A DNA stretch of 64,000 nt from Halomicrobium zhouii. Its GTDB lineage: Archaea; Halobacteriota; Halobacteria; Halobacteriales; Haloarculaceae. The translations under genes were made by a program, and so were the position numbers. Where the stretch lies: NCBI RefSeq assembly GCF_900114435.1, contig NZ_FOZK01000003.1:248001-312000 (forward strand), read 5' to 3'. The notes beneath the pieces were generated by a model, which was given only the letters and a program-made list of their open reading frames with translations, ran no database searches and had not been told where the DNA came from. Below, in pieces: positions 3,794 through 31,431 of the stretch (its first letter is position 1; each line of letters begins with the position of its first letter).

Positions 3794-5296
3794 ATGACAG
3801 CAGCGAACACGGACCACGATCGAGAACGGAGTAGCGTCTCCCGGCGCCGATTCGTCGTCAGTGCCGGTGCGTCGGGTCTCGCCACCGGTCTCGCCGGGTG
3901 CTCGGAGCTACTTGGCGGCGGTAACGGCGGTGGCGGCGGAGGGACGAACGGAACACAGACCGGCGACGCGGGCGGGGGCGAGGCGACGACCGTCACCTGG
4001 GGGTTCGACGCGACGGTGGCCCAGGACCACGCCGACGAGATCAGCACCGCGTTGCACGAAGAGGGCGGCCTCGCGGACGACGTCGAGGTCCAGTTCGAGC
4101 AGGGCCAGCCCGACACCGGCGAGCGACGGGCGAACTACAATCGGCTCCTGAACGCCGGCGAGGCCACGCCCGACATGTTCATGATGGACAACGGCTGGGT
4201 GAACATCTTCATCCAGCGCGGCCAGATCCAGAACCTCTCGGAGCTGCTCTCCGACGAGCAGTTGACCACCATCGACGAGGAGTACTTCTCCGGGTTCACC
4301 GAGACGGCCATCGACCCAGAGAGCGGCGACCTCTTCGGCGTCCCGCTCTACCCCGATTACCCGACGATGCTCTACCGGAAGGACCTCGTCGAGGCAGCGG
4401 GGTACAGCCCGGAGGAGAACAACTGGGCGACGGAGCCGATCACCTGGGAGGAGTGGTCCAACGTCGCGGCGGACACGTACGACAACGCGGACGTCGAGTA
4501 CGGGTTTACGACCCAGTGGGACATCTACGAGGGGACGGCCTGTTGCACGTTCAACGAGGTGATGAGCTCGTGGGGCGGCGCGTACTTCGGCGGCCGTGAC
4601 AACCTCTTCGGGCCCGTCGGCGAGCGACCGATCACCGTCAACTCCGAACCTGTGATCCAGTCGCTGAACATGATGCGCAAGTTCGTCCACGACGAGGACT
4701 TCGAGAACCTCCAGGGGTACGGCGGCGGCTTCACGACGTCGAACATCCTCGGCTGGATCGAGGACGGCTCCCTGGCGCCGTTCACGAACGGGAACGCCAT
4801 CTTCCACCGGAACTGGCCCTACGCGATCAACGCGGCGGCCTCCGAGTTCGGCGACGACCTCGGGACGATGCCGATCCCGTACGCGGTCCCCGAGAACGAA
4901 GCCCAGTTCCAGGGCACCGGCGGGACGACGTCGGCCCTCGGTGGCTGGCACATCACCGCCAACCCCAACAGCCAGAACCTCGACGCCGTCGCCCAGGTCA
5001 TCGACGCGTCGATGCAGGAGGAGTTCCAGCTGTTCCTCCTGGAGACGGAGGGGTGGCTACCGCCCCGGAGCGAGCTGTTCAACTCCGAGACGGCCGCGAA
5101 CGTCGACCCGATGGGCAACTACATGAACACGCTCCAGGTCGCCGGTGAGAACACCATGGCGCGACCGGTCACGGCCGTCTGGAGCGACGAGTCCAGCGCC
5201 ATCGCCGAACAGGCCAACGCCGCCGTCAACCAGGACCTCTCCTCGGCCGACGCGATGGCCCAGCTCGAGTCGACGCTCGAGAACATCGAGGGATAA
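3794..5296 (+). CDS. Sugar ABC transporter solute-binding lipoprotein (CUT1)
   Basis: 500-aa extracellular substrate-binding protein of the SBP family 1 type. It has a Tat signal with SRRRF at residues 16-20 and lipobox LAGC at 33-36, so it is exported folded and lipid-anchored at Cys36. A Gly-rich linker follows, then the binding domain. It is the first gene of a five-gene operon with two permeases, an ATPase and a small membrane protein. Residues 235-282 are encoded by a patch almost identical in DNA to the orphan binding protein at 9742-11283. Substrate is probably a sugar or oligosaccharide, given TrmB and Gfo/Idh neighbours; the exact ligand is unknown. Confidence 0.93.
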   Translation: MTAANTDHDRERSSVSRRRFVVSAGASGLATGLAGCSELLGGGNGGGGGGTNGTQTGDAGGGEATTVTWGFDATVAQDHADEISTALHEEGGLADDVEVQFEQGQPDTGERRANYNRLLNAGEATPDMFMMDNGWVNIFIQRGQIQNLSELLSDEQLTTIDEEYFSGFTETAIDPESGDLFGVPLYPDYPTMLYRKDLVEAAGYSPEENNWATEPITWEEWSNVAADTYDNADVEYGFTTQWDIYEGTACCTFNEVMSSWGGAYFGGRDNLFGPVGERPITVNSEPVIQSLNMMRKFVHDEDFENLQGYGGGFTTSNILGWIEDGSLAPFTNGNAIFHRNWPYAINAAASEFGDDLGTMPIPYAVPENEAQFQGTGGTTSALGGWHITANPNSQNLDAVAQVIDASMQEEFQLFLLETEGWLPPRSELFNSETAANVDPMGNYMNTLQVAGENTMARPVTAVWSDESSAIAEQANAAVNQDLSSADAMAQLESTLENIEG

Positions 5297-5373: not shown

Positions 5374-6366
5374 ATGACGCCGGAACCGGCGACCGAATCC
5401 GGTCGCGAGTCTCGGCGGACCGGACCGCTGGTCACCCTGACGCGGCGAGTAGAGAACCTGAGCGACACGCAGTACGCCTACCTGCTCCTGTCGCCCGTGT
5501 TCGTCCTCCTCGGAATCGTGGCGCTGTATCCGCTGTTGCGGACGTTCGAGCTCTCGCTGTTCGAGACCAGCATCAACCAGGCGTCCCAGACGTTCGTCGG
5601 GTTCGACAACTACGTCGAGCTATTCACCGGCGAGAAGGACCGGTGGCTCCCCGGGACGTCGACGTTCCTGCCGACCAGCCTGACCTTCGACGCGATGATT
5701 TCGAGTGCGCTGGTCGTGACGCTACTGTTCGCGGTCGTGGCGGTGTCCTTCGAGACGGTCATCGGCCTGGGGCAGGCGCTCGTCCTCGACCAGGACTTCC
5801 CAGGCCGGCGCTGGGTGCGCGCGGCGATCATCATCCCGTGGGCCGTCCCCATCGTCATCCAGGGGATGATCTTCTTCCTGATGTTCCACCCCGAGATCGG
5901 ATTTCTCGTCCAGCCGCTGGCCGACCTGGGGCTGCTCGCCGAGCGGAACACGCTCAACGACCCGGCGAGCGCGCTGTTCATCATTACCGTCGCCGACATC
6001 TGGAAGACGTCGGCGTTCATGGCGCTGCTCATCCTCGCGGGGCTCCAGAGCATCGACCGGAACCTCTACGACGTCGCGAAGGTGGCCGGCGCGACCCGGT
6101 GGCAGCAGTTCAAGCTGATCACGTTCCCGCTCATCTTGCCGACCATCGGAATCGCCGTACTCTTCCGCACCGTCCAGGCGATGCGCATCTACGGCCTCAT
6201 CGACGCGGTCGCCGGCTGCGAGGTCGTGCCGTCGCTGTCCTGCATGGTCGTCACGACGTTCCTGACCAGACAGGGAACCTCGGCGGCCATCGCCTTCGTC
6301 ACCGCGGCCATCATCGGTGTCGCGGTGACTGCGATCATCTACCAGCAGTACAAGGAGGGTATCTGA
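5374..6366 (+). CDS. Sugar ABC transporter permease (MalF-like)
   Basis: 330-aa membrane permease of the CUT1 class. There is one membrane segment near residues 35-55 (YLLLSPVFVLLGIVALYP) and then a cluster of segments. The cytoplasmic EAA loop is visible near residues 228-250 (YDVAKVAGATRWQQF), which docks on the ATPase. The start at ATG 5374 overlaps the stop of a 12-codon minicistron beginning at 5339, so translation may be coupled. It pairs with the second permease, whose ATG follows the stop directly. Confidence 0.92.
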   Translation: MTPEPATESGRESRRTGPLVTLTRRVENLSDTQYAYLLLSPVFVLLGIVALYPLLRTFELSLFETSINQASQTFVGFDNYVELFTGEKDRWLPGTSTFLPTSLTFDAMISSALVVTLLFAVVAVSFETVIGLGQALVLDQDFPGRRWVRAAIIIPWAVPIVIQGMIFFLMFHPEIGFLVQPLADLGLLAERNTLNDPASALFIITVADIWKTSAFMALLILAGLQSIDRNLYDVAKVAGATRWQQFKLITFPLILPTIGIAVLFRTVQAMRIYGLIDAVAGCEVVPSLSCMVVTTFLTRQGTSAAIAFVTAAIIGVAVTAIIYQQYKEGI

Positions 6367-6367
6367 A

Positions 6368-7384
6368 ATGGCGACGCCAGACCGACGCGACGACAGAGTC
6401 GAACCGGACGAGACGGAGGGCGGCCCGCTCGAACGCTGGACCCAGCGGGCCATGCAGAACCCCGAGCGGGTGTACCGCGCCCTGTTCTACGTGGTCATGA
6501 TCTTCTTCATGGTGACGACACTCTTCCCGTTCTACTGGCTGCTCGTGCTGGCCCTGACGCCACAGAGCCGCCTGTTGCAGGGGAGCTTCCTCCCGCAGAT
6601 CGACCTGTTCGGGGCGGCCGCCGAGTTCCCGCTGCCGGTGGCGAAGGGATTCAATCCCGCGGCGTTCGTCTCGGTGTTCGAGCAGGTGCCGTTCCACCTG
6701 TTCATGCTCAACAGCTTCGCGCTCGCGGTGACGACGACGGTCATCGTCCTCGTCATCGCCAGCCTCGCGGGGTACGCGTTCGGCCGCCTCGACTTCCCGG
6801 GGCGGGGGGCGCTGATGCTCGGCATCCTCGCGATCAGTTACTTCCCGCCGGCCGCGTTCGTCATCCCGCTGTTCGAGGCGTTCACCGGCAACGTCCCGAT
6901 AACGATCCCGTTCACCGAGATCCCGCTGTTCACGCCGCCGCGATTGCTGAACACGCCCGGCTCGATGGTGATCCCCTTCAGCGCGCTGTTTCTGCCGCTG
7001 TCCATCTTCATCCTGACGACGTTCTACGCCCAGATACCCGACGGACTGGAGGACGCCGCCCGCGTCGAGGGGACGACCCGGATCGGCGCGCTGTTCCGGG
7101 TCATCATCCCGCTGTCGGCGCCCGGCGTGGCGACCGCGGCCATCCTGACGTTCATCGCCGTCTACAACGAGTACTTCTTCAGTACGATCATGGCGACGTC
7201 CTTTGCCGCGGGCAACTGGTCGCCCCTCGTCGGCGGCATTCTCAGCTACCAGACCCAGTACACCACCCAGTTCAACCTCATGGCGGCCGCGAGCATCGTC
7301 GGGGTCCTGCCCGTCGTCCTGCTCGTCGTCGTCGCCCAGGAACGCATCGTCAGCGGGCTGACCGCGGGCGCACTCAAGGAGTAA
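6368..7384 (+). CDS. Sugar ABC transporter permease (MalG-like)
   Basis: 338-aa second permease of the CUT1 transporter. It has an N-terminal membrane anchor at about residues 40-62, further hydrophobic segments, and an EAA loop (EDAARVEGTTRIGALFRVI) near residues 220-240. The start codon falls one base after the stop of the first permease, and its stop is followed after 2 nt by the ATPase ATG, so this is a tightly packed operon. It forms the heterodimeric channel with the MalF-like partner. Confidence 0.92.
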   Translation: MATPDRRDDRVEPDETEGGPLERWTQRAMQNPERVYRALFYVVMIFFMVTTLFPFYWLLVLALTPQSRLLQGSFLPQIDLFGAAAEFPLPVAKGFNPAAFVSVFEQVPFHLFMLNSFALAVTTTVIVLVIASLAGYAFGRLDFPGRGALMLGILAISYFPPAAFVIPLFEAFTGNVPITIPFTEIPLFTPPRLLNTPGSMVIPFSALFLPLSIFILTTFYAQIPDGLEDAARVEGTTRIGALFRVIIPLSAPGVATAAILTFIAVYNEYFFSTIMATSFAAGNWSPLVGGILSYQTQYTTQFNLMAAASIVGVLPVVLLVVVAQERIVSGLTAGALKE

Positions 7385-7386
7385 CC

Positions 7387-8571
7387 ATGGCACGACTCAA
7401 ACTCGAACACGTCACGAAACGCTACGAAGACGTCACCGCGGTCGACGACATGAACCTCGACATCGACGACGGCGAATTCGTCTGCCTCGTCGGGCCGTCG
7501 GGGTGTGGCAAGTCGACGACGATGGAGATGGTCGCCGGACTCACCACCCCCTCCGGGGGGACCGTCACCATCGGCGACCGCGACGTCACGAACCTGCCGC
7601 CGAAAGACCGCGGGGTCGCGATGGTGTTCCAGAACATCGCGCTGTTTCCCCACATGGACGTCTACGACAACATCAGCTTCGGGCTGCGGCTGCGCGACTA
7701 CCCGCGGGAAGAGATCGACCGCCGCGTCGAGCACGCCGCAGACATCGTCCAGCTAGAGGGGATGCTCGACCGGATGCCCGACGAGATGTCCGGCGGCCAG
7801 CGCCAGCGCGTCGCCATCGCGCGCGCCATCGTCCGCGAACCGGACGTCTTCCTGATGGACGAGCCGCTGGCGAACCTCGACGCCAAACTCCGCGTCCACA
7901 TGCGGACGGAACTCCAGCGCCTCCACAAGGAACTGGACACGACGATAATCTACGTGACCCACGACCAGGCCGAGGCGATGACGATGGCCGACCGCATCGC
8001 CGTCCTCGACGCGGGCAAACTCCAGCAGATCGACCCGCCGCTCGTCTGTTACAACGAGCCCGCCAACCTCTTCGTCGCCGGCTTCATCGGCTCGCCGTCG
8101 ATGAACTTCGTCGACGGGACCGTCACCGAATCGGGGCTGGAGTCCGAGTACTTCGACCTCGAGTTCGACCACGCGGCGTTCCAGGGGGTGGGAGTCGGCG
8201 ACGCGGTGACCATCGGCGTCAGGCCGGAGGACGTCTACCCGGCGTCGGAGGCGGCGTCGCTGGCCAGCGGTTCCAGACCGATCGAGGTGATCACCGACGT
8301 CCTCGAACCGATGGGCGACGAGATATTCACCTACCTGCTGATGGGCGAGGGCGAGACGTCGATGGCCCAGGAGGCGGCAACGAACGACCAGTTGCTCATG
8401 AGCATCGATCCCAACACCGACATCACGGAGGACCAGGAGATGGACGTCGTCCTCGACCGGCGCAACGTCCACCTCTTCGACGCGGCCAGCGGCCAGGCGC
8501 TGACGCACGGCATCGTCTCGCCGCCGGACGCCGACGGCGCGGCAGGGTCCCCTGCGGAGACCGACGACTGA
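7387..8571 (+). CDS. Sugar ABC transporter ATP-binding protein (MalK/UgpC/MsmX type)
   Basis: 394-aa ATPase. Walker A GPSGCGKST is at residues 36-44, the Q-loop region is VFQNIALFPH, the ABC signature is MSGGQRQRVAIARA, Walker B is VFLMDEP and the H-loop is VTHDQAEAM. The last 150 or so residues form the regulatory TOBE/OB domain typical of MalK-type sugar importers. It energises the two permeases just upstream. The acidic, Ala-rich C-terminal tail is a haloarchaeal extension. The small membrane protein gene starts 2 nt after its stop. Confidence 0.95.
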   Translation: MARLKLEHVTKRYEDVTAVDDMNLDIDDGEFVCLVGPSGCGKSTTMEMVAGLTTPSGGTVTIGDRDVTNLPPKDRGVAMVFQNIALFPHMDVYDNISFGLRLRDYPREEIDRRVEHAADIVQLEGMLDRMPDEMSGGQRQRVAIARAIVREPDVFLMDEPLANLDAKLRVHMRTELQRLHKELDTTIIYVTHDQAEAMTMADRIAVLDAGKLQQIDPPLVCYNEPANLFVAGFIGSPSMNFVDGTVTESGLESEYFDLEFDHAAFQGVGVGDAVTIGVRPEDVYPASEAASLASGSRPIEVITDVLEPMGDEIFTYLLMGEGETSMAQEAATNDQLLMSIDPNTDITEDQEMDVVLDRRNVHLFDAASGQALTHGIVSPPDADGAAGSPAETDD

Positions 8572-9741: not shown

Positions 9742-11283
9742 ATGTCGATGACTGACGAGTGCGGTCCTGGTGACGGACGGCGTCCCGTCTCGCGACGTCG
9801 ATTCCTCGCGAGCACCGCCGGGACCGGTCTCGCCGCGGCACTGGCGGGCTGTCCGATCGGGGGCCGCGAAACCCCACACGGAGCGACGGTGACGGAACGG
9901 TCCGAGAGTGAGACGGTGGGTACGACTCGGGAGACGACAGACGACTCGACCGTCAGGTGGGCGTTCGAACCACTCACGGAAGCGGAGGGGAAGGCGATCG
10001 AGCGCGCGCTCTACGACCACGGCCTCTCCGCCGACGTCGACGTGCGGTTCGAGCCCGGAGACCCGGACCCGGCCCAGCGTCTCGCCGAGTTCGAACAGGC
10101 CCTCGCGTCGGACGAAGGCGGTCCTGACGTGTTCCTCGTGGAATCCGACTGGGTAATCCCGTTCGCCGCTCGGGGCCAGCTGGCCGAACTCTCTGCGCTC
10201 GTCTCCGAGGAGCGCCTGGCGGAAGCCGACGGGGAGTACTTCGAAGCGCTCGCCGCGCTCGGTGGCAGTCCCGACGGGGAAACACAGTTTGGCGTGCCGG
10301 TCTCCGCGGATTTCGGGACGATGCTCTACCGGACGGACCTCGTCGAGGCAGCGGGGTACGACCCCGTCGAAGACGACTGGGCGACCGAGCCAATGACGTG
10401 GGAGGAGTGGTCAAACGTCGCGGCGGACGTGACCGACCACGCGGGCGTCGAGTACGGCTTTACGACCCAGTGGGACATCTACGAGGGGACGGCCTGTTGC
10501 ACGTTCAACGAGGTGATGAGCTCCTGGGGCGGCGCGTACTTCGGCGGCCGTGACAACCTCTTCGGGCCCGTCGGCGAGCGCCCCATCACCGTCGGCGCCG
10601 ACCCAGTCGTCCGGTCGCTGAACATGATGCGAAAGTTCGTCCACGACGAGGGCGTGTCGGGGCTGGAAGCGTACGCCGGGGGGTTCGCGCCGACCGAGAT
10701 ACTCGGCTGGATCGAGGAGGGGTCACGGGTTCCGTTCACGAACGGCGACGCGGTGTTCCACCGCAACTGGGCGAGCACGTTGACGGCGATCGTCAGTGAC
10801 CTCGAAGACGGGGGCGCGTCCGAGCGCGCCGAACGGATTGGTGCCATCCCTCTCCCGTACGCCGTCACCGAGGACGAGGCCCGCACAGACGGTACTGGCG
10901 GGACGACGTCGGCTGTGCGCGGTCGATACGTGACGGTGGATTCCGACAGCCGGGACCGGGACGCGGTCGCGCAGGTCCTCGAGGTGGTGACCGACCCGGC
11001 CTTCCAGACGGACCTGATCGCTATCCTGGGGTGGTTGCCGCCACGGCCCGCGCTGTACGAGTCGGGTGACGTGTGGAACGCCGAGGGAGTCGGCGAGTAC
11101 GCACCAACCTTCGGCGTCGCCGGCGCGAACGCGATGCCGGCGCCGGTGACGCGGGTGTGGAACGACCAGGCGAGCCTCGTCGCCCAGCAGGCGAACCGCG
11201 CCGTCGGGCAGGAGGTGTCTTCGAGCAAGGCGATGGCGGACCTCGCATCCAACCTCGAGACGATCGAACGGTCGGCCCGATAG
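9742..11283 (+). CDS. Orphan sugar-binding lipoprotein, paralogue of the operon SBP
   Basis: 513-aa Tat lipoprotein with SRRRF at residues 17-21 and lipobox LAGC at 34-37, then an SBP family 1 domain homologous along its length to the protein at 3794-5296. A TATA-like CTTTAACC about 26 nt upstream of the ATG at 9742 suggests a leaderless transcript of its own. No permease or ATPase follows, so it either feeds the neighbouring transporter with another ligand or acts as a sensor. Residues 237-284 are identical to the operon protein while the flanks are clearly diverged. Confidence 0.9.
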   Translation: MSMTDECGPGDGRRPVSRRRFLASTAGTGLAAALAGCPIGGRETPHGATVTERSESETVGTTRETTDDSTVRWAFEPLTEAEGKAIERALYDHGLSADVDVRFEPGDPDPAQRLAEFEQALASDEGGPDVFLVESDWVIPFAARGQLAELSALVSEERLAEADGEYFEALAALGGSPDGETQFGVPVSADFGTMLYRTDLVEAAGYDPVEDDWATEPMTWEEWSNVAADVTDHAGVEYGFTTQWDIYEGTACCTFNEVMSSWGGAYFGGRDNLFGPVGERPITVGADPVVRSLNMMRKFVHDEGVSGLEAYAGGFAPTEILGWIEEGSRVPFTNGDAVFHRNWASTLTAIVSDLEDGGASERAERIGAIPLPYAVTEDEARTDGTGGTTSAVRGRYVTVDSDSRDRDAVAQVLEVVTDPAFQTDLIAILGWLPPRPALYESGDVWNAEGVGEYAPTFGVAGANAMPAPVTRVWNDQASLVAQQANRAVGQEVSSSKAMADLASNLETIERSAR

Positions 11284-11880: not shown

Positions 11881-12945
11881 ATGACTGCTGTCTCGGACGT
11901 TCGCGTTGGCTTCGTCGGCCTCGGGAACATCGCCCAGCTCCACGCGGACGAGATAATCGGCCACGGCGGTCAGGTCGTCGCCGGCACCGACGTCTCCCCG
12001 GAGGCGCGCGCGATGTTCGCCGAGGACTACGGCGCGGAAGTGTTCGAGGACCACGCCGAGATGTACGAACTCGTCGACGCCGTCGTCGTCTCGACGCCCA
12101 ACCGCTTCCACGAGGAGTACGTCGTCGCCGCGCTGGAGGCCGGCCTCGACGTCCTCGTCGAGAAGCCCCTCGCGCACACGCTCGAGAGCGCCCAGCGCAT
12201 CGCCGACGCCGCCCGTGACGCCCAGGGGTTCTGTATGGTCGGCTTCCACAACCGGTTCTGGGGCCCGGTCCAGGTACTCAACAGCTACCGTGAACAGGGC
12301 AAACTCGGCGACGTCAACCACGTCGAGGCCAACTACATTCGGCGACGCGGTGTCCCCGGCCGTGGGAGCTGGTTCACCCGCAAGGACGTCTCCGGCGGCG
12401 GCGCCGTCATCGACATCGGAACGCACGCTATCGATCTCGCACTCTATCTCATGGGCTACCCGGACGTGGAGGAGGTATCGGCGACGACCCGGTCACAGTT
12501 CGGTTCAGAGGAGGAGTACAGCTACCTCTACATGTGGGGCGAGGACCGCGGCGTCGGGAACTTCGACGTCGAGGACTCCGCCACCGCGTTCATCCGCTGT
12601 GCCAACGGCGCCACCATCTCGCTGGAAGTCGCCTGGGCGGCGAACCGCGAACCCAGCCAGGACTTCTTCGTCCGCGGCACGGACGCCGGCGCACAGTTCG
12701 ACATCTCCGAAGAGGGGATGACCGTCCACGAGACGGCCGACGACGGCGTCAACCACCACCGGGACATCGACGTCGAGACGACGGACCGGGAGGCCCACGG
12801 CATCGAACAGCAGCACTTCCTGCGGGCCGTCGCCGAAGGAAAACACCCGGTCATGAACACCGTCGAACAGGGTCTGGAGGTCCAGAAGATAATGGACGGT
12901 ATCTACCGGTCGAGCGAGGAAGGACGAGCCGTCGCCATCGAGTGA
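11881..12945 (+). CDS. Gfo/Idh/MocA-family oxidoreductase
   Basis: 354-aa NAD(P)-dependent dehydrogenase with Rossmann motif GFVGLGNIA, the VEKPLA signature and the GGGAVIDIGTHAIDLA active-site region. It is a clear paralogue of the protein at 1308-2399 along its whole length (shared motifs RG(V/I)PG.GSWFT and VEDSATA.IRCA). The pair brackets the transporter cluster, so both may act on imported sugars or on successive oxidised products. It is preceded by a long promoter region with a possible TrmB-type site. The substrate is unknown. Confidence 0.88.
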   Translation: MTAVSDVRVGFVGLGNIAQLHADEIIGHGGQVVAGTDVSPEARAMFAEDYGAEVFEDHAEMYELVDAVVVSTPNRFHEEYVVAALEAGLDVLVEKPLAHTLESAQRIADAARDAQGFCMVGFHNRFWGPVQVLNSYREQGKLGDVNHVEANYIRRRGVPGRGSWFTRKDVSGGGAVIDIGTHAIDLALYLMGYPDVEEVSATTRSQFGSEEEYSYLYMWGEDRGVGNFDVEDSATAFIRCANGATISLEVAWAANREPSQDFFVRGTDAGAQFDISEEGMTVHETADDGVNHHRDIDVETTDREAHGIEQQHFLRAVAEGKHPVMNTVEQGLEVQKIMDGIYRSSEEGRAVAIE

Positions 12946-30737: not shown

Positions 30738-30950
30738 CTGTTGTCTTTTGCGAGGTGGTGGAGGCCCTTATATCAACCTCTTCCCTGGCTCCGCTGGGCC
30801 CCGTAGCTCTCTGGCGGTTTTACCGTCTCGGATTTATTTCACACCAGCAATCTCGTACCTTTTGTCGTCGCAGTGACCCGTTGCCGTCCCGCACTCGGGG
30901 GACCGAAAGGAAACCTATTTTACCCGCCACCGGGAATCCTGAGTTGTCTT

Positions 30951-31024
30951 GGGCCGGTAGCTCAGTCCGGCAGAGCGACGGACTCTTAATCCGTCGGTCG
31001 AGGGTTCAAATCCCTTCCGGCCCG
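30951..31024 (+). tRNA. tRNA-Lys (CTT)
   Basis: 74-nt tRNA. The acceptor stem GGGCCGG pairs with CCGGCCC, the anticodon loop CTCTTAA gives anticodon CTT, the T-arm is GGGTTCAAATCCC, and the discriminator is G. The anticodon stem ACGGA/TCCGT closes correctly. A TATA-like CTATTTTACC lies upstream near 30916. The 22 bases at its 3' end recur twice downstream in the tandem repeat. Confidence 0.97.
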
Positions 31025-31280
31025 TTTTCCTGCGAACGAAGGTGAGGAGCGAAGCGGCTATGGAGGATTTGAACCCGGAGAGTCGCAGCGGTCGAACGAA
31101 GTGAGACCGACCGTCTCTCCTCGGTTCAAATCCCTTCCGGCCCGTTTTCCTGCGAACGAAGGTGAGGAGCGAAGCGGCTATGGAGGATTTGAACCCGGAG
31201 AGTCGCAGCGGTCGAACGAAGTGAGACCGACCGTCTCTCCTCGGTTCAAATCCCTTCCGGCCCGTTTTCCTGCGAACGAA
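31003..31280 (+). repeat. 120-bp tandem repeat seeded on the tRNA-Lys 3' end
   Basis: A 120-bp unit (tRNA T-arm and acceptor 3' end followed by CGTTTTCCTGCGAACGAAGG) repeats exactly at 31021-31140 and 31141-31260, with a third partial copy to about 31280. The 22-base tRNA 3' end GGTTCAAATCCC... is at 31003-31024, 31123-31144 and 31243-31264. Integrases commonly use tRNA 3' ends as att sites, so this may be the trace of repeated integration and excision, or simple tandem duplication. Confidence 0.9.
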
Positions 31281-31431
31281 GTGAGCAGTGAAAACGCCAC
31301 GAAGGGATTTGAACGACGCCACGAGCGAGCGTCAGCGAGCGAAGTGGAGGTAGTTCAAATCCCGAAAGATGCGCCGAGTACGTGTTCCGATACTCGCGGT
31401 CGGGTGGCTCCTGAGCCAATGACGTCCCGCC
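31281..31431. other. Gene-free segment after the tandem repeat
   Basis: No ORF of merit. It continues the AGTGAG-type low-complexity sequence of the repeat and contains one more degenerate T-arm-like piece (AGTTCAAATCCCG at about 31354-31366), which would be a decayed third copy of the tRNA end. Confidence 0.5.

Follow-up and report, generated by a model that had tools for sequence, protein, structure and literature searches.

The window, that is, the whole 64-kb stretch of DNA analysed here, forms part of a 4.25-Mb haloarchaeal genome and carries two genes for solute-binding proteins, SBP1 and SBP2, which lie 6 kb apart on the same chromosome. SBP1 (positions 3794–5296, + strand; an ORF of 500 residues) stands first in an ABC transporter operon: its product matches the Pfam family SBP_bac_1 above the cut-off, and it shares the operon with two binding-protein-dependent permeases (BPD_transp_1 in both) and a MalK-type ATPase (ABC_tran with OB_MalK), which together occupy 5374–8571 on the same strand and identify SBP1 as a sugar-binding protein of the CUT1 type. 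The closest solved chain, both for SBP1 and for the family profile, is 1EU8, the CUT1 trehalose/maltose-binding protein of Thermococcus litoralis; the window proteins match Pfam families of bacterial extracellular solute-binding proteins. SBP2 (9742–11283, + strand; an ORF of 513 residues), a diverged paralogue of SBP1, matches SBP_bac_8 as well as SBP_bac_1, and neither permease genes nor any other transporter genes adjoin it. TrmB-type regulators, recognized through Pfam, are found around the locus. Additionally, two diverged paralogues of the GFO/IDH/MocA oxidoreductase family (Pfam), with ∼51% amino acid identity, lie in inverted orientation on both sides of the sugar transporter locus, at 1308–2399 (− strand) and 11881–12945 (+ strand).

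Among the 146 family genomes searched, only one contains a close orthologue of SBP2, namely, that of strain HArc-gm2 (G063), for which glucomannan was the isolation substrate and typing gave a Halomicrobium-like result (PMC9726719). It is of the same genus as the window; a further member of that genus is G059, whose gene is the Halomicrobium katesii gene. HArc-gm2 is the only second genome to carry both SBP1 and SBP2; the layout of its locus is the same, with ∼94% DNA identity to the window. Outside the block described below, dN between the SBP2 orthologues is 0.029 against a dS of 0.122, and SBP2 is therefore under purifying selection. In the tree, SBP2 sits on a very long branch.

The SBP1 and SBP2 proteins are 43% identical outside 4364–4697. 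Within this region lies a 144-bp patch, at 4496–4639 in SBP1 (residues 235–282) and 10450–10593 in SBP2 (residues 237–284), both on the + strand, in which all 48 residues are identical and the genes differ at just four positions (4504, 4570, 4627 and 4630), every one of them synonymous; the initial annotation had given the coordinates, the length, the number of differences and the 48 identical residues correctly. With 32% of positions differing over the genes as a whole, four or fewer differences in 144 would be expected with a probability of ∼3 × 10−19, although this calculation ignores protein conservation. The partner patch is the sole other copy found in the 4.25-Mb genome, and when the window was compared with itself, a sharp island of identity was seen in no further pair of coding regions. 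It is unlikely that the patch is an assembly artefact: HArc-gm2, a separate genome, shows the same arrangement, yet its codons are its own and differ from those of the window. By phmmer alignment, the block falls on the segment GFVWQGKQYEGLVCDF of 1EU8 and what follows it. The structure predicted for SBP1 has a mean pLDDT of 73, but values below 50 over most of the block (residues 243–280), where it is unreliable and does not serve to place the block in the binding cleft.

Conserved sequence had also been reported to the left of the patch, around the motif TMLYRxDLVEAAGY, and this is real: between 4364–4405 of SBP1 (+ strand) and 10318–10359 of SBP2, 41 of 42 bases are common and all 12 synonymous codons are identical. 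However, the similarity comes in two pieces and is not a continuous extension, as 9 of 30 residues differ across the intervening 4406–4493. The left block includes an Ala codon, GCA at 4394, that SBP1 and SBP2 of the window have in common; Glu, Gln, Lys or Asp occupies this position in most relatives. It is possible that this block represents a separate, less certain conversion tract.

The identity of the two proteins in the patch does not in itself call for an exchange of DNA. The family's most conserved 48-codon window begins exactly at 4496, and 39 closer relatives retain 41–47 of the 48 residues; therefore, the amino acid identity is largely accounted for by family-wide purifying selection. 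To this extent, the original argument that the patch is too sharp for purifying selection alone does not hold; it does so for the DNA, where the synonymous and phylogenetic evidence is the only kind diagnostic of conversion. Conceivably, selection could still suffice if a functional core preserved the residues and, via codon bias, similar codons in both genes, but the proportion of synonymous codons that differ in the block is ∼0.32 between SBP1 and its relatives, which is about the same as outside, and only 0.09 (4 of 45) between SBP1 and SBP2. The comparison of synonymous divergence proposed in the initial annotation gives the same picture, with a dS between the window paralogues of 0.14 in the block versus 0.82 outside. 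When stratified by codon degeneracy, the window paralogues show 4 synonymous differences in the block where 15.6 are expected (p = 9 × 10−5), and the HArc-gm2 paralogues show 7 where 15.4 are expected (p = 0.0065). Moreover, the orthologues diverge in the opposite sense: between the two genomes, pS for SBP2 is 0.31 in the block versus 0.11 outside (Fisher test, p = 0.01), and for SBP1, 0.22 versus 0.14, albeit not significantly (p = 0.18). Selection on the protein alone, which is also at odds with this greater divergence of the SBP2 orthologues inside the block than outside it, thus retains only a very slight probability.

A constraint on the nucleotides themselves, whether from an overlapping antisense frame, an RNA structure or a regulatory site, might instead fix the codons in both genes, and long antisense ORFs (3908–4951 and 10479–11252, − strand) do overlap both patches, although such frames are usual at a G+C content of ∼66%. 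General constraint of this kind had been named at the outset as the finding that would speak against conversion. Instead, the synonymous sites of the block vary normally, both among the 39 relatives and between the orthologues, such that the low synonymous divergence in the tract is not shared by the relatives. A low mutation rate or a constraint on synonymous sites should reduce the divergence of paralogues and orthologues alike, and as the orthologues show the reverse trend, constraint is excluded; we accord it a negligible probability.

The second genome allows the history of the block to be examined site by site. In the quartet test, each position was compared across all four genes, SBP1 and SBP2 from either genome, with the block already specified when the second genome came under study; sites at which the paralogues group within a genome are termed concerted, and crossed sites provide a measure of coincidence. 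Inside the block, five sites are concerted, one is orthologous and none is crossed, whereas elsewhere in the genes the respective numbers are 3, 422 and 3 (Fisher test of concerted versus orthologous sites, p = 2.7 × 10−9). The five concerted sites (4498, 4543, 4546, 4567 and 4597) are consecutive among the informative sites, and such a run was reached in none of 100,000 shuffles. One of them is non-synonymous, giving Glu in both window genes and Asp in both HArc-gm2 genes. The borders are sharp, being set by the orthologue-grouping sites 4491 and 4627, and outside the block the genes keep their orthologue relationship. These site patterns delimit a putative post-split conversion tract of 100–135 bp, extending at least over 4498–4597 and at most over 4492–4626 in SBP1, with a largest extent of 10446–10580 in SBP2 (offset 5954; both on the + strand); the post-split signal rests on the five sites. 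Purifying selection on the protein cannot yield five consecutive concerted sites, which refutes it as the only cause. As a negative control, the oxidoreductase paralogues that flank the transporter genes gave 335 orthologous sites versus 1 concerted site in the quartet test, with no sign of conversion.

The trees differ in the corresponding manner. In the block DNA tree, the window SBP1 and SBP2 pair together with 99 bootstrap/85 SH-aLRT support, and all four genes group together with 100/96, whereas in the tree built without the block the orthologues pair at 99–100. For the alignment of 144 bp, the AU test gave p = 0.133 for the orthologue grouping, which is thus not formally rejected, with a log-likelihood difference of 13 over the 144 columns. 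In the block, the window SBP2 is 97.2% identical to the window SBP1 and 92.4% identical to its HArc-gm2 orthologue. Given the low dS of the block, the normal divergence of the relatives and the five consecutive concerted sites, the gene conversion proposed in the initial annotation is well supported, and we consider it very probable, with high confidence, that short-tract ectopic (non-allelic) conversion has taken place between the anciently diverged SBP1 and SBP2, at the single long segment over which they are highly similar.

Particular codons give an indication of the order of events. At 4541 and 4544, both window genes read TGT TGC, whereas at 4544 the two HArc-gm2 genes and every one of the 39 relatives have TGT; TGC is thus derived in the window lineage, which places a conversion after the species split and, most simply, in the window lineage itself. 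The Ser codon at 4565, on the other hand, belongs to the AGY type throughout the four genes, as opposed to TCN in 39 of 39 relatives, and this switch would appear to have been common to the paralogues before the species split. The excess similarity of the block extends to the HArc-gm2 paralogues, so a second event is needed, and the codons suggest at least one more homogenization, which may have preceded the split or taken place in the HArc-gm2 lineage. The notion of a recent recombination is therefore upheld in that at least one conversion followed the split, but not as a single recent event: the pattern requires two or more, and the tract that is unambiguously recent covers 100–135 bp. As to direction, the asymmetry of divergence, in what are small counts, makes transfer from SBP1 to SBP2 the likelier; the recipient would be expected to depart from its own orthologue, and it is SBP2 that departs significantly.

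Two further histories could be envisaged for the same sites. In the first, SBP1, SBP2 or both acquired the patch through recombination with the DNA of a relative: haloarchaea are described as highly recombinogenic (PMC3988388), and import would raise the divergence of the block between orthologues, as is seen for SBP2 and, below significance, for SBP1. However, the same 100–135 bp would have to be hit in both paralogues of one genome, and from the same donor, while the TGC of the window at codon 4544 occurs in none of the 39 relatives; copying between SBP1 and SBP2 is simpler, and import is highly improbable. In the second, SBP2 arose by a recent lineage-specific duplication and diverged rapidly except in the block, which retained the ancestral state. 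Placement of SBP2 outside the relatives of SBP1 is favoured by the tree, but is made unsure by the long branch, and a grouping of SBP2 with SBP1 is not rejected (AU test, p = 0.24). The pair may thus have originated in a recent duplication, and if SBP2 is such a lineage-specific duplicate, the shared Ser codon at 4565 could be simple inheritance. It fails, however, to explain the island: fast protein change does not itself raise synonymous divergence, yet dS between the paralogues is ∼0.8 outside versus 0.14 inside, and the concerted sites, which it leaves unexplained, contradict it for the recent event. As an account of the block, we regard it as extremely improbable.

From established knowledge, conversion between SBP1 and SBP2 would be expected to employ the ordinary homologous recombination machinery, with RadA-type strand invasion followed by repair. 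Purifying selection at the protein level may keep the block similar enough for pairing, and the diverged flanks would then halt the tract or limit its length. A more elaborate proposal, which we think unlikely, is that the block is a selected exchange module, in which recurrent conversion is kept for docking to the transporter or for a portion of the binding cleft that both proteins share, the rest of SBP2 being free to diversify, with occasional similar exchanges in other haloarchaea, for example G016.

There is no support for the block as a general conversion hotspot of the family: in the other family genomes with at least two paralogues, similarity within the block does not exceed that of between-genome controls for most pairs. 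The paralogues a and b of G016 (L008 and L092) differ at 3 of 41 synonymous codons in the block versus 0.32 outside, with controls of at least 0.11; their quartet offers only one concerted and one orthologous site.

Conversion confined to a segment of diverged paralogues is already known from release factors and mtrA, and the SBP pair adds a new instance to this known kind. In the bacterial release factors RF1 and RF2 (PMC4530459), conversion is likewise limited to a functionally shared segment of diverged paralogues, and two independent cases were detected through phylogenetic conflict between regions; unlike the 100–135-bp tract of this haloarchaeon, however, nearly the whole of a domain (domain 3) was affected, and in opposite directions in the two cases. 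The mtrA-1 and mtrA-2 genes of methanogens (PMC4632066; PMC6053082) are, like SBP1 and SBP2, archaeal paralogues of a single locus that evolve in concert while other parts of the genes remain distinct, but they encode a methyltransferase and their conversion has been maintained for a very long time (PMC4632066), whereas the SBP case covers two close species. The seven archaeal genes in a prokaryotic survey (PMC6053082) are all from methanogens and include no sugar-binding protein, and our literature search combining gene conversion, solute-binding proteins and paralogues returned nothing on the subject by title and abstract. Within the haloarchaea, Haloferax volcanii equalizes its genome copies by efficient intermolecular gene conversion (PMC11276520), such that the machinery exists in the class; that process is allelic, with tracts of thousands of base pairs, whereas the exchange proposed here is ectopic, involves diverged paralogues and has a very short tract. 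According to the same source, gene families rarely evolve in concert, and the tracts are then short. The SBP pair would provide a cleanly polarized haloarchaeal example in which strongly diverged protein-coding paralogues undergo ectopic conversion over a short tract. Moreover, as the conversion would have happened in the family's most conserved window, local trees built on the block would mislead as to the history of the genes.

Elsewhere in the window, a tRNA-Lys (CTT) gene at 30950–31025 is followed by tandem repeats of ∼120 bp (the region as a whole spanning 30950–31314), each of which contains a copy of the 3′ end of the tRNA, GGTTCAAATCCCTTCCGGCCCG; the arrangement resembles an array of repeats, or a series of attachment-site remnants, next to the tRNA gene.
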